In this document: positions 11,537-64,000 of the stretch, piece by piece
Position numbering within the stretch: position 1 is the stretch's first letter
How the letters are laid out: every line of letters begins with the position of its first letter
Source: an uncultured Rhodospirillales bacterium
GTDB lineage: Bacteria > Pseudomonadota > Alphaproteobacteria > Acetobacterales > Acetobacteraceae
Direction: 5' to 3'
Assembly (NCBI GenBank): GCA_903927465.1
Contig: CAIYMY010000028.1
Coordinates: forward strand, 1 to 64,000
DNA: 64,000 nucleotides
Translations under genes and position numbers: made by a program
Notes under the pieces: generated by a model
The model's input: the letters and a program-made list of their open reading frames with translations, nothing else
Told to the model about the DNA's origin: nothing
Databases searched by the model: none

Positions 11537-12985
11537 ATGGGTAAGACAACTGGCTTTCTTGAATTCGAACGTGCCGAACGCGGCTATATCAAGCCCGAAG
11601 AACGGCTGAAGAATTACAAGGAATATGTGACACCCCTGCCGGGGGCGGAGCTGACCAAGCAGGCGGCGCGCTGCATGAATTGCGGCATTCCGTATTGCCA
11701 TAATGGCTGCCCGGTGAACAACATGATCCCGGATTGGAATGACCTGGTCTATCGGGATCAGTGGCAGGCGGCGCTGGAAACGCTCCATTCCACCAACAAC
11801 TTCCCGGAATTCACCGGCCGCATCTGCCCCGCACCGTGTGAGGCAAGCTGTACGCTCAACATCACAGAAACGCCGGTCACCATCAAATCCATCGAATGTG
11901 CGATTGTGGATCGCGGGTGGGAAGAAGGCTGGATCAAGCCGCAAATCCCCACACACAAAACCGGCAAGCGCGTGGCCGTTGTGGGCAGCGGCCCGGCGGG
12001 GCTGGCGGCGGCGCAGCAATTGGCACGTACCGGCCATGCGGTGACGCTGTTTGAAAAATATGACCGGATCGGCGGCTTGCTCCGTTACGGTATTCCTGAT
12101 TTCAAGATGGAAAAGCATCTGATTGACCGCCGTGTGAATCAAATGGCTGCGGAAGGCGTTGAATTCCGCACCGGCACGGAAGTAGGCACTACGCTGCCTT
12201 TTGATGTGCTGCTCGCGGGTTACGATGCGGTGGTGCTGACGGGCGGGGCGGAATGGCCGCGCGAATTGGAAGTGGATGGGCGCAATCTTTCCGGCATCTA
12301 TCCCGCCATGGAATACCTGACGCAGCAGAACAAGCGCGTGGCGGGCGATACTGAAGACCGCGCTGCGCCGCGTGGCACCATCTCGGCCAGCGGCAAGCAT
12401 GTGGTGGTGATTGGTGGTGGCGATACGGGTGCCGATTGCATCGGCACCGCGGCGCGTCAGGGTGCGGCTTCCATCACGCAGATTGAAATCATGCCAAAGC
12501 CGCCCGAGCATGAAAACAAGGGCCTCACCTGGCCGAATTGGCCGCATAAGCTTCGCACCGCGCCGGCGCATTATGAAGGCTGCGCGCGTGATTGGGCCGT
12601 GCTGACCAAACGCGCTGTGGGTGAGAATGGCCGCATGACGGCGCTTGATTGCGTGCGTGTGGAATGGGTGCATGAAGCTGGGCGCATGCAGATGCGCGAA
12701 GTGGCGGGCAGCGGCTTTCAGATGAAGGCTGATCTGGTGCTGCTGGCGATGGGCTTCCTTGGGCCGCGCCGTGCGGGGCTGCTGGAGACATCCGGCGTTG
12801 CTTTGGATGCGCGTGGCAATGTGCACGCGGATACGGATGCCTATCAGACCTCGGTCCCCAAGGTATTCGCCGCAGGTGATATGCGCCGCGGGCAATCGTT
12901 GGTGGTTTGGGCCATTCGCGAAGGCCGGCAATGCGCGCGCGCGGTGGATGAATTCCTGATGGGGGCAAGCACCCTGCCGCGCTGA
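11537..12985 (+). CDS. gltD: Glutamate synthase (NADPH) small subunit
   Basis: GltD feeds electrons from NADPH through FAD and 4Fe-4S clusters to GltB. The N-terminal cysteines [14 protein letters not shown] and CPAPCEASC bind the clusters. [14 protein letters not shown] is the FAD Rossmann motif, and GGGDTGADC is the NADPH-binding motif. The length of 482 residues is standard. A strong GAGGAGG ribosome site (from 11520) precedes the ATG. A copy of the dispersed hairpin repeat begins 15 bp after the stop. Confidence 0.97.
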
Positions 12986-12999
12986 GGCGGCGGGGTATT

Positions 13000-13103
13000 G
13001 GAGTATTTTCAAGCCAAACGGAATCATTTGCATCTCGGAAAATACGAACGAAGGAAGATTTAGTGCGTGTCCCGGGAACGAATGTAATCGGGACGCGATC
13101 TAG
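13000..13103 (+). repeat. Dispersed bipartite hairpin repeat, full copy A
   Basis: This copy aligns along its whole length with the reverse complement of 38723-38827. Module 1 is an outer stem GTATTTTC (13003-13010) with GAAAATAC (13038-13045), enclosing CCAAACG...CATTTG. Module 2 runs from TTAGTGCGTGTCCCG to GCGATCTAG (13061-13103). In the outer stem a T-A pair replaces the C-G pair of copies B and C, and an inner G-C pair is replaced by A-T, so pairing is kept. Module 2 is less well paired here than in copy B, suggesting decay. It lies directly after gltD. Confidence 0.85.
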
Positions 13104-13126
13104 GCGCCTATCTGGCAATCCCCCAG

Positions 13127-13158
13127 CCTAGGCGATGTTTGCCTGGGTTTGTCTTTTT
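13127..13158 (+). terminator. Putative rho-independent terminator after gltBD
   Basis: A stem CCTAGGC (13127-13133) pairs with GCCTGGG (13141-13147, one G-T pair) over a seven-base loop and is followed by TTTGTCTTTTT. This is a reasonable intrinsic terminator for gltBD. The rest of the 13104-13483 gap shows no convincing gene or promoter. Confidence 0.5.
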
Positions 13159-38705: not shown

Positions 38706-38722
38706 GGGCGGTATGGGATGGG

Positions 38723-38827
38723 CTAGTGCGCGACCCATTCACATTCGTTCACGGGACACGCACTAGAACTTCGTGTGGTCGCATTTTCCGAGCCGCCAAG
38801 TGATGCCACTTGGCTTGAAAATGCTCT
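38723..38827 (-). repeat. Dispersed bipartite hairpin repeat, full copy B
   Basis: This copy runs opposite to copy A and is the best-paired one. Module 2 is bounded by perfect CTAGTGCG (38723-38730) and CGCACTAG (38759-38766). Module 1 has outer GCATTTTC (38781-38788) and GAAAATGC (38817-38824) around CCAAGTG/CACTTGG. It fills almost the entire space between convergent gyrB and the D-threonine-aldolase-like gene, touching the stop codon of the latter, so it could end transcription from both sides. Confidence 0.88.
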
Positions 38828-39932
38828 ATGCCATCCCACCCCGCGCAGATACTGGCCACAAGCACTCCACACGCCCCTTGCGGACGCCGACATACCAATC
38901 ATAGCGATCAACCGTCGGGTCGCAGTGGCCGGGCACCAGGCGCAGCTTTTCGCCAAGCTTCGGCACGCTGCCATCTTCGATCACGATCTTGCCATGTTCA
39001 TCAGACGCGCCCGCATAGCGCAGCCCAGGGCGTTGCCAGACCTGCGGCATGCCGGAATCAACCGAAACACCCTTATGCCCGCAATCCAGCACGGCAATGC
39101 CCGGCCCTGCGGTGCTCATGACTTGCGACAGCACGAAAAGCGATTGCCGGAAGGGCGGCGCATCCTCATTCGCCGCATAATCCGCATCCATGAAGCAGTA
39201 AGACCCCGCCTGGATTTCGGTATAGACGCCGCTCGCCGCCTCATGCCGGAAGGTGCCGGTGCCGGCCCCGCCCACAATCGGGCATTCCAGCCCGCGCTGG
39301 CGGAGTTGTTCCACCGTGCGCCGGGACCGCGCCACGGCCTCACCAATCGCCGCCGCGCGTTCTTCTGGTGCGCGCTTGTGCTGCGCTGAACCGTGATAGG
39401 CCTGCAAGCCGCCAAAACGTAGATGCCGGCTGGCGGCGATGCGTTCCGCCAGTGCCACGGCAGGCGGCCCATGTTCCACCCCGCCGCGCGCCATGCCGAC
39501 ATCAATTTCCACCAGCACCGGCAGGCGCACGCCAGCGGCTTCGGCGGCGGCTTCAATCAGGGCAATCTGCGCGGCGTCATCCACACACACAGCGACTTCC
39601 GCGATGCGCGTAAGGGCCGCGAGCCGCGCCAATTTGCGCGGGCTGACCACCTGGTTGGTGACCAGAATATCCGGAATGCCGCCCCAAGCCAGCGCTTCGG
39701 CCTCGGCCACTTTTTGCACGCATTGCCCAACGGCGCCGCGCGCCATTTGCAGCTTGGCGATGACGCTGGATTTGTGGGTTTTCGCATGCGCGCGAAGCTT
39801 AGCGCCAGTTGGCGCCAGCAGCGCCGCCATGGTGTCAAGGTTATGTTCAAAAGCATCCAGGTCTATCACCAGCGCGGGGGTATCAATGTCTTCTTCGCGC
39901 ATGCCGGGTTCGGCGGGTGGGTGTTGCAGCAT
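38826..39932 (-). CDS. DSD1-type PLP enzyme (D-threonine aldolase / D-serine dehydratase-like)
   Basis: The 368-residue protein has an alanine-racemase-type N-terminal barrel: DTPALVIDLDAFEHN, then RAHAKTHKSSVIAK, where the Lys in AHAKTHK binds PLP. The C-terminal domain has the metal ligand pair His and Cys in VPGHCDPTVD, typical of D-threonine aldolase, 3-hydroxy-D-aspartate aldolase and eukaryotic-type D-serine dehydratase. Sequence alone does not separate these activities. It is convergent with gyrB and its stop abuts repeat copy B. Confidence 0.88.
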   Translation of the reverse strand: MLQHPPAEPGMREEDIDTPALVIDLDAFEHNLDTMAALLAPTGAKLRAHAKTHKSSVIAKLQMARGAVGQCVQKVAEAEALAWGGIPDILVTNQVVSPRKLARLAALTRIAEVAVCVDDAAQIALIEAAAEAAGVRLPVLVEIDVGMARGGVEHGPPAVALAERIAASRHLRFGGLQAYHGSAQHKRAPEERAAAIGEAVARSRRTVEQLRQRGLECPIVGGAGTGTFRHEAASGVYTEIQAGSYCFMDADYAANEDAPPFRQSLFVLSQVMSTAGPGIAVLDCGHKGVSVDSGMPQVWQRPGLRYAGASDEHGKIVIEDGSVPKLGEKLRLVPGHCDPTVDRYDWYVGVRKGRVECLWPVSARGGMA

Positions 39933-46993: not shown

Positions 46994-47064
46994 GGCTGGT
47001 TTCCCAAAGGCGCATGCCCGCCTATAAGGCTGCATCCTGGGCCGTTGGCCGGAGTTTCAGTGCA

Positions 47065-47832
47065 ATGATGGAAAAACGAAGCAAGCCGAATGAACCGCGA
47101 CGGGTGCTGCTGCTGACAGGCGCCTCCCGCGGGATTGGGCATGCCACGGTGAAGCGCTTTTCTGCGGCTGGCTGGCGCGTGATCACGGTGTCGCGGCAGC
47201 CCTTCCCGGAACAATGCCCCTGGGAAATGGGGCCTGAAGATCACATTCAGCTTGATCTGGGCGACCCCGTGCTGACCGAGGCAATGATCCCGGAAATCCG
47301 CGCCCGTTTGGCCCCGGATGGCGGCATGCTGCATGCGCTGGTGAATAACGCCGCGATTTCGCCAAAGGGCGAGGGTGGGGCGCGGCTTGGCACGCTGACC
47401 ATGCCGACGGATGGGTGGCGCCGCGTTTTTCAGGTGAATTTCTTCGCCCCCATTCTGCTGGCGCGGGGCTTGGTGGAAGAATTGGCGCGCGCCAATGGTT
47501 CGGTGGTGAATGTGACGTCCATCGCCGGCGGGCGGGTGCATCCTTTTGCGGGCGCGGCCTATTCCACATCCAAGGCGGCGCTGGCGGGGCTGACGCGCGA
47601 AATGGCAGCAGATTTCGCCCCGCGCGGCGTGCGCGTGAATGCGATCTCACCGGGCGAGATTGATACCTCCATCCTTTCCCCGGGGACGGACAAGATCGTG
47701 AAGGAACAAATCCCGATGCGTCGGCTTGGCCGGCCAGAGGAAGTGGCGCAGGCCATTTACTTCCTGTGTACCGAGGCGTCTTCCTATGTGAATGGCGCAG
47801 AAATTCATATCAATGGCGGGCAGCACGTTTGA
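47065..47832 (+). CDS. Short-chain dehydrogenase/reductase (SDR)
   Basis: A 255-residue classical SDR. TGASRGIGHATV binds the cofactor, with Ser-Arg in TVSRQPF suggesting NADP(H) preference. NNAA replaces NNAG, the catalytic Ser is in VTSIAGG, and YSTSKAAL provides YxxxK. The end SSYVNGAEIHINGGQHV is typical. I use the ATG at 47065 (GGAG site upstream) rather than 47014. Half a copy of the dispersed repeat overlaps its stop codon. The substrate is unknown. Confidence 0.9.
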   Translation: MMEKRSKPNEPRRVLLLTGASRGIGHATVKRFSAAGWRVITVSRQPFPEQCPWEMGPEDHIQLDLGDPVLTEAMIPEIRARLAPDGGMLHALVNNAAISPKGEGGARLGTLTMPTDGWRRVFQVNFFAPILLARGLVEELARANGSVVNVTSIAGGRVHPFAGAAYSTSKAALAGLTREMAADFAPRGVRVNAISPGEIDTSILSPGTDKIVKEQIPMRRLGRPEEVAQAIYFLCTEASSYVNGAEIHINGGQHV

Positions 47833-47930
47833 AGCATTTTCAAGCCAAGCGGCTTGGCTTGGCGACCAGGAAAATGCGACCCATTAACAGCCGAGAGCAT
47901 TTCAGCCGTGCGAATGCGTGGCCGAAATGC
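47831..47930 (+). repeat. Dispersed hairpin repeat, module 1 copy C plus a related hairpin
   Basis: Module 1 is present at 47831-47882: GCATTTTC (47834-47841) pairs with GAAAATGC (47870-47877), and inner CCAAGC pairs with GCTTGG. The CTAG-ended module 2 is absent. In its place a second hairpin, GCATTTC/GAAATGC (47898-47904 with 47924-47930) with an inner GCC/GGC, occurs 15 bp on. The first hairpin overlaps the SDR stop. The exporter gene starts 18 bp later. Confidence 0.75.
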
Positions 47931-47948
47931 GCGAAGGCGTTCTGAAAC

Positions 47949-52563: not shown

Positions 52564-52569
52564 TGAGCG

Positions 52570-52625
52570 CTAGTGGTGCGATTCACGCTGCTGCCGGGAA
52601 CCGACAGCAGCGACCGGACCACTAG
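52570..52625. repeat. CTAG-ended double hairpin E, related to module 2 of the dispersed repeat
   Basis: Perfect outer arms CTAGTGGT (52570-52577) and ACCACTAG (52618-52625) enclose a second perfect stem GCTGCTG/CAGCAGC with the loop CCGGGAACCGA. It shares the CTAGTG boundary and GGGAAC core with module 2 of copies A and B but not the rest. It occupies the whole space between convergent genes, and its right CTAG supplies the TAG stop of the minus-strand gene. There is no T-run. Confidence 0.75.
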
Positions 52626-52939
52626 CGGCGCAACTCCCCCGCAAATTCCAGGATTTCCCGAGACCGCGTGACCCGGCTGCCCCAGACGCGGTCAAATTCC
52701 GCGATCAGCTTGCTGAGCGCGGGTGAACCCGGCAGGGCTTCAACCGCCGCCATGCTCGGAAATTCATAAAAGGCGAAATGGAGCGATGGGTCCGTCTTGC
52801 TCCAGCAGCGCCAGGCATGGGCGACGCCAAAGGCGGTCAGCGCATCGGGCAAATGTTCCTTTTCATACCAGGTGTCGAAACCGGGCCGGTCGGCTGGGTC
52901 GGCGACCACGGCGCGCACCATGAAGAAAGCCTTGGACAT
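52622..52939 (-). CDS. Small ferredoxin-like-fold protein (EthD/Dabb-like), unknown function
   Basis: The 105-residue protein MSKAFFMVRAVVADPADRPG continues FDTWYEKEHLPDALTAFGV, the WY..EHLPD pattern of the alpha-beta barrel EthD/Dabb-like dimeric families, and FAFYEFPSMAAVEAL. These are often accessory or degradative enzymes, but no function can be assigned. AGGAAAC precedes the ATG at 52939. Its stop codon is formed by the CTAG end of repeat E. Confidence 0.75.
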   Translation of the reverse strand: MSKAFFMVRAVVADPADRPGFDTWYEKEHLPDALTAFGVAHAWRCWSKTDPSLHFAFYEFPSMAAVEALPGSPALSKLIAEFDRVWGSRVTRSREILEFAGELRR

Positions 52940-63874: not shown

Positions 63875-63977
63875 GCGCTTCATCCATATCCGGCGCGGGC
63901 TGGCTGCCCGATTCGCGCGACATGCGCTCTTGCGCCGGGGCACGGCCAATGTCCAGGCCCCGGCGAATTGAGTTCCG

Positions 63978-64000
63978 GAGTATTTTCAAGCCAAGTGGAA
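63978..64000 (+). repeat. Dispersed hairpin repeat, copy D cut by the window end
   Basis: The last 23 bases begin GGAGTATTTTCAAGCCAAG, nearly identical to the start of copy A at 13000 and sharing its T variant of the outer stem. Only the left arm is in the window, so the fold cannot be checked. Confidence 0.7.

Follow-up and report, generated by a model that had tools for sequence, protein, structure and literature searches.

A two-hairpin repeat family of an Acetobacteraceae genome as a probable CIR-type miniature element inserted at TA

Repeat copies in the window and their fold

The window analyzed here is a 64-kb stretch of contig C28, which belongs to a 3.78 Mb assembly of 220 contigs that is 98.5% complete. 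Between its open reading frames (ORFs) lies a non-coding repeat of about 104 bp, made of two hairpin modules joined by a linker. Copy A (13001-13103, plus strand) is full length, with module 1, linker and module 2, and has a decayed inner stem; it starts 15 bp beyond a 482-codon ORF (11537-12985) that by eye looks like the small subunit of glutamate synthase. A terminator-like hairpin with a T-run follows just 3' of it, at 13125-13149. Copy B (38724-38828, minus strand) is also full length and runs from TA at 38827-38828 through GAGC...GCAC at 38726-38826 to TA at 38724-38725, and the stop codon of the minus-strand ORF 38826-39932 is formed by TA plus the first G of the copy. The whole of copy B sits in the loop of a terminator-like inverted repeat (TGGGATGG...CCATCCCA, 38714-38838), whose arms occupy 38831-38838 and 38714-38721. 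Copy C (47829-47935, plus strand), again full length but with a diverged module 2, docks at the TGA stop codon (47830-47832) of ORF 47014-47832. Copy D (63975-64000, plus strand) is a module-1 copy cut by the window end: 26 positions at its start lie inside, and the rest runs on to contig position 64064.

The original observation of an end-to-end match of about 104 bp between copies A and B was confirmed by within-window comparison of 13001-13103 with the reverse complement of 38723-38826, which gave 78.8% identity over 104 bp with an E value of 9e-20. Covariance model R1, made from 28 copies of the same genome, found both copies at high score (38723-38829 on the minus strand, 119.8 bits; 12998-13103 on the plus strand, 100.3 bits) and two further plus-strand matches more weakly. 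One of these, at 62.3 bits, makes a real member of the piece proposed at 47831-47882 and extends it to a whole two-hairpin copy at 47829-47935; the other, at 21.8 bits, upholds the piece proposed at 63978-64000 as a match at 63975-64000 cut by the window end. The last proposed piece, 52570-52625, does not belong: the plus-strand hairpin at 52568-52626, which is nested, CTAG-bounded (module 2b) and located between two convergent ORFs, gave no match, at E values up to 10, with either R1 or the wider model R2. Since it is part of a different repeat, the count for the window falls from five copies to three plus a truncated one. This other hairpin is very stable (folding z -7.61), and among the loci compared a 91% identical hairpin is present in two further genomes of the genus, adjoining another CTAG-bounded hairpin. 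A search of the window against Rfam at gathering thresholds returned nothing but one tRNA.

The element consists of a TA-containing target, module 1, an A-rich linker (CCAAACAAAG) and module 2. In the consensus of module 1, GAGC begins an outer stem of 8 pairs, followed by an internal loop that is short on the left and longer on the right and by an inner stem of 8 pairs closed by a 4-base loop, and the consensus of module 2 is an 18-pair hairpin that ends near CTAR. The two arms fold independently, and the only terminal repeat of the element is the short GAGC...GCTC. Folding bore out the claimed structures, nested stems in module 1 and a CTAG-ended hairpin in module 2, with z scores of -6.67 for copy B and -2.67 for copy A. 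Of the two compensatory changes proposed from copies A and B, the outer-stem change from C-G to T-A on both arms is real (C-G in 22 of 28 copies, T-A in 5 and unpaired in 1); the inner change from G-C to A-T is also real in copy A, the one copy of 28 to carry it, but the adjacent pair is broken and one stem base is missing there, so that copy A must be regarded as a decayed copy.

Covariation was assessed on 49 aligned sequences, namely 37 S1 copies of the genome itself, six S2-like copies of the genus and six plasmid copies from Sinorhizobium, Novosphingobium, Sphingobium and Methylobacterium. Both sides change in 27 of 34 pairs and 89.3% of cells are paired, a score that favors the structure because the structure was derived from S1 copies; none of 500 shuffles of the same sequences reached any of the measures, and slid columns were only 31-43% paired. 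A similar picture was obtained for 28 copies found by R2 in other genomes, with changes on both sides in 32 of 34 pairs and 90.4% of cells paired in an alignment fitted to the model. A2 rows, whose loop is unconstrained in their retrieval pattern, were excluded from module-1 covariation because this pattern fixes the module-1 stems. Covariation above background was thus found against shuffles and column slides alike, and the original description was right: the family is dispersed, has two hairpin modules and shows compensatory changes.

Distribution, subfamilies and mosaics

A blastn search with copy A gave 48 matches in its own genome, and R1, with 150 of 1296 candidates scored, gave at least 141 at E<=1, some of which overlap in tandem arrays; all are at 4.5e-7 or better except one (0.003). 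The forecast of dozens to hundreds of copies therefore held. Within the genus, 21 of 22 other genomes match R1 at E<=0.01, with a best E below 1e-23 in nine. R1 was also run on 80 of 90 loci of labeled metagenome-assembled genomes (MAGs), and among the matches listed the core occurs in MAGs labeled Roseomonas sp., Asaia bogorensis, Rhodospirillales and Alphaproteobacteria bacterium; these loci cannot be added to the genus counts because the two sets overlap. A MAG labeled Asaia bogorensis and one labeled Roseomonas sp. share a filled site with flanks 91-93% identical (L068, L093 and others), and one of the two labels looks doubtful.

Beyond the genus, R2 matched at E<=1e-5 in at least 27 of 289 genomes of the class, including the genome studied here, with 13 candidates scored per genome. 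The positive genomes other than this one (at least 26) carry full-length relatives and represent 18 families of Alphaproteobacteria; three other genomes of the same family in this survey, each with 13 candidates scored, gave no match at that threshold. Among 28 copies from other genomes, 13 start with YTAGAGC and 19 finish with GCTCTAR. Furthermore, a model-free search with the S1 consensus hit just two plasmid records at E<=1e-5: pNGR234b of Sinorhizobium fredii NGR234, with a 77% identical element (E 1e-6), and one of Novosphingobium, with a module 1 at 86% identity. No match came from phage records or viral contigs.

Contig comparison brought out a second 104-bp repeat, S2, which has the plan of S1 with different stems and whose hallmarks are GGAATC in the loop, a linker containing AAACAAAG and a module 2 with GTGAAC...GTGAAC (for example, L171:15645-15748 and L172:12582-12689). 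It has 22 matches in the genome studied and at least one in each of 14 genus genomes tested. The 18 other S2 copies listed from this genome are 89-98% identical to the reference, apart from a 67-base piece at 100%, and the closest non-self full copy among the matches listed is 98% identical. S2 looks younger than S1, to judge from the sequences, because its copies vary less. In two genus genomes of 5.5-6.3 Mb (G001 and G009) S1 matches are weak, but 27 and 35 diverged S2-like matches are found; G010 and G004 have few S1 copies together with 2 and 1 S2 matches, respectively.

Modules also occur in other arrangements. Head-to-tail S2 dimers about 103 bp apart lie at G019:C1:93325-93529, G005:C56:249810-250018 and G022:C231:26284-26490, and the junction of the S2 dimer at L222 is a single shared TA. 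Module 2b, as in the window at 52568-52626 and at L181:293-351, L216:1377-1500 and L277:1360-1480, adjoins S2 or replaces module 2 beside module 1, which produces mosaics. In addition, six solo copies of module 1 have element-free orthologues. These solo copies may be deletions rather than insertions: L144 is module 1 alone where L084 has both modules, and loss of module 2, as there and in copy C of G007, also yields solos, so that module 1 may or may not be mobile by itself.

Empty sites, stop codons and the search for a transposase

Orthologous sites in related genomes are filled in some and empty in others. At the copy B site, the element is present in one of nine relatives (G022) and absent in eight, of which G014, G008 and G007 provide short clean empty sites and five are empty but more divergent. 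The empty site of G008 is a terminator-like hairpin, TGGGATGG CGTAACG CCATCCCA, with one TA; the hairpin is slightly changed in G014, which likewise has a single TA, and in G007, which has CTGA in place of TA. In G019, the corresponding locus (L165) contains an unrelated stretch of about 150 bp that is hairpin-rich by eye. At the copy C site, five of nine relatives are empty (G014, G019, G005, G012 and G002) and four are filled, the copy being whole in G008, G022 and G017 and having lost most of module 2 in G007.

The clearest case is the C39 copy, where the element is absent in five of six relatives compared and G008 is filled, with an extra tandem module 1. The empty sites of G007, G019 and G005 hold a single TTAA and the filled site reads TTA-element-TAA, so that TA is duplicated at this site; two empty sites deviate, G014 with TTAG and G022 with TTAA twice within a locally repeated stretch. 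Further composite pairs of filled and empty sites are L012/L089, L015/L142, L021/L121 and L091, L068 and L093/L072, L109/L150, and L084 with the window; the pair L024/L107 was dropped as not collinear. Lengths at L068 and L093 against the empty L072 fit a TA duplication, and the L012, L015 and L021 pairs are too divergent for duplication to be read. The duplication is therefore clean at C39; at L068/L072, and at copy B when compared with G008 and G014, whose loops differ in the rest of their sequence, the data are only consistent with it. Among 38 S1 copies of the genome, TA flanks both ends in 10, the right end only in 20, the left only in 1 and neither in 7; TA is thus found on the right in 30 and on the left in 11, and the left end is often changed. 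In S2, the left end is TTA or CTA in 14 of 20 copies and the right end CTAA or CTAG in 17 of 20. The element shares with MITEs a short, non-autonomous, dispersed makeup, sites that some relatives have filled and others empty, and, at C39, a TA target site duplication.

Stop codons are frequent neighbors of the element. A crude ORF script, applied to S1 and S2 with orthologous copies of different genomes counted separately, called a neighboring ORF left and right of 110 copies, 43 of them between convergent and 7 between divergent ORFs; another 42 copies were left out as being near locus ends, spanned by an ORF or short of two called neighbors. Of 69 copies oriented like their upstream ORF, 26 have the left end 0-2 bases from its stop. 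Because the left end of the element can itself supply a stop codon, docking has to be judged against orthologues, and in all seven docked sites compared with an empty orthologue (B, C, L109, L084, L119, L106 and L113; alignments by eye) the stop codon has the same position without the element. In 642 kb, YTAR occurs 0.83 times per kb in coding and 6.06 times per kb in non-coding sequence, about seven times more rarely in the former, and stop codons make up 19% of the non-coding YTAR sites, with repeat copies unmasked. A TA or YTAR target combined with loss of harmful insertions goes some way to account for docking. The target is at best TA with loose context, and only loosely YTAR because some empty sites differ, that of copy B being GTAA and some stops being TGA.

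The position of copy B inside a palindrome has a weaker general counterpart. Flanks pair at -16 kcal/mol or better in 10 of 69 copies against 4.5 expected (122 of 20000 permutations; 192 of 20000 for mean flank pairing), with some orthologous copies counted twice in this test. Flank palindromes were rejected as a general target, and they have only a minority effect at most.

What, then, could mobilize the element? DDE_3 transposases (IS630 type) are present in nine of 14 genus genomes, and among the 15 of 21 DDE_3 loci examined, two have TA-flanked end candidates, which are unlike the element. Four of the five genomes that are free of DDE_3 carry many repeat copies (three of these four are less than 90% complete), and IS630 as the present driver, though conceivable, is unsupported on both counts. 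PF13586 transposases occur in eight of ten genus genomes; three of 12 loci have end candidates, and one, a TA-flanked candidate in G001, starts with GAGC and shares nothing further. Altogether, five of the 27 loci of insertion sequences (IS) of these two types have TA-flanked end candidates, none is like the element beyond GAGC, and no transposase with ends matching the element was found among the 27. Insertion sequences do meet the repeats: at L282:1414-1480 (G000:C84) one interrupts an S2 copy at an internal CTAG, and at L203 and L217 sequence resembling IS ends, by eye, abuts S2. IS711 is an element of the IS5/IS427 kind, and by analogy a driver of this kind is a plausible guess. IS711 targets YTAR, duplicates TA and prefers the Bru-RS repeats, according to PMC2266754.

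Explanations and known systems

Together, these results suggest that the repeat is probably a CIR-type, MITE-like miniature element of Alphaproteobacteria, about 104 bp long and inserted at TA by a transposase acting in trans. The transposase would insert the element at TA and duplicate the TA, insertions inside genes would mostly be lost, and copies would persist at non-coding TA sites such as stop codons and the loops of terminator-like palindromes; the loop of module 1 would ancestrally have been of GANTC type. The polarity (gain rather than loss) and DNA transposition in trans are the parts of this account that we infer.

Other readings share some of this evidence. A functional RNA element of 3' untranslated regions, which protects or terminates mRNA ends and moves only incidentally, would agree with the strong covariation among copies and subfamilies and with the excess of copies between convergent ORFs, yet sister species differ in its presence at the same stop codon, copies A and B have no terminator-like T-run themselves, decayed copies such as copy A exist, and the covariation may stem from selection on a DNA hairpin during transposition; we consider this reading unlikely. 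A role as carrier of GANTC sites for CcrM methylation in cell-cycle control, as speculated for CIR, is less probable again. Most S2 copies, half of the S1 copies of the genome and the Sinorhizobium and Novosphingobium copies carry GAATC in the loop of module 1, but GANTC persists there in only 21 of 38 S1 copies of the genome and 28 of 100 matches from related MAGs (16 of 20 in S2), although pairing in the surrounding stem stays at 97%; it is missing from the Sphingobium and Methylobacterium copies, and some distant copies have a GGAACC-type loop. GANTC looks like an ancestral loop state that is decaying, and conservation in S1 gives a methylation role no support.

The same presence and absence could also reflect ancient, vertically inherited repeats that have only been lost, a reading helped by the internal deletion of copy C in G007 and by the fact that gain is inferred. 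It is very improbable in view of the same single TTAA in three relatives at the C39 site and of S2 copies at different sites that are mostly 85-98% identical to one reference. Least credible of all is a REP element whose movement depends on a RAYT, a Y1 tyrosine transposase. Such an element would show tandem arrays and scattered extragenic hairpins close to stop codons, but Y1_Tnp (PF01797) was found in none of 14 genus genomes by a search that was positive in five of 14 control genomes; REP is unlikely because of this absence, and the TA duplication at C39 and a length of 104 bp with two different arms, against 20-40 bp for REP elements (PMC3733652), point the same way. Of the REP/MITE likeness first noted, the MITE half thus stands, by empty sites and TA duplication, and the REP half does not.

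With insertion at TA as the preferred reading, a wider proposal can be advanced tentatively, as one that we take seriously without yet favoring it. The two-arm repeats of Alphaproteobacteria (CIR and the rhizobial and sphingomonad look-alikes) may form one class-wide lineage of mini-transposons with a TA target, in which stems were completely recoded and the plan, length and GAGC...GCTC ends were kept; stop codons and terminator loops would be safe sites, YTAR being rare in coding sequence, and the driver would be of IS5/IS427 type.

The kind of element is already known. CIR repeats, attributed to Chen and Shapiro 2003 in PMC2229807 and PMC10969869, are described as about 110 bp long, with two arms and a linker, GANTC at one terminal loop and 5'-TA-3' termini (PMC2229807). 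The present family fits this description of CIR: it is similar in length, has two long inverted repeats as arms plus a linker, is alphaproteobacterial and intergenic, and has GANTC at the loop of one arm in the consensus as well as TA termini. It is unlike CIR in that GANTC is lost in many copies and that solo module 1 and swapped modules occur. The impression that no described family was involved appears to hold for the subfamilies, which have no Rfam match and no fitting title among those listed, and fails for the kind. Among the titles and abstract openings listed, none concerned such repeats in Acetobacteraceae.

The Rhizobium intergenic mosaic element RIME1, from the Rhizobium chvI region, is 108 bp long with two large palindromes, and by this description it resembles the present element in length and two-palindrome plan; the pNGR234b element is a candidate RIME1. 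Bru-RS1 and Bru-RS2 of Brucella, at 103 and 106 bp, are palindromic and intergenic (PMC10800456, PMC2266754) and are reported hot spots for IS711 insertion at YTAR with TA (PMC2266754). Compared by description, they are similar in length, palindromes and intergenic location, and the IS in the CTAG of an S2 copy recalls their use as IS targets. RUP of pneumococcus, ERIC and NEMIS/Correia are likewise small MITE-like repeats with TA termini, but their two ends pair with each other when they fold (PMC2229807); in the present element each arm folds by itself, and the terminal repeat is limited to a short GAGC...GCTC.

Repeats of CIR type have been on record since 2003, and the element is of an ordinary kind; the evidence on its insertion is new. 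The 2007 review lists the target site duplication of CIR as '?', leaves the mobility mechanism open and states that more information on CIR movement is needed (PMC2229807). Here, a TA duplication is seen, and together with stop-codon insertion and with sites that are empty in sister species it makes the mechanism testable. In addition, repeats that bear separate names in several alphaproteobacterial genera can be searched for with a single tool, the covariance model.
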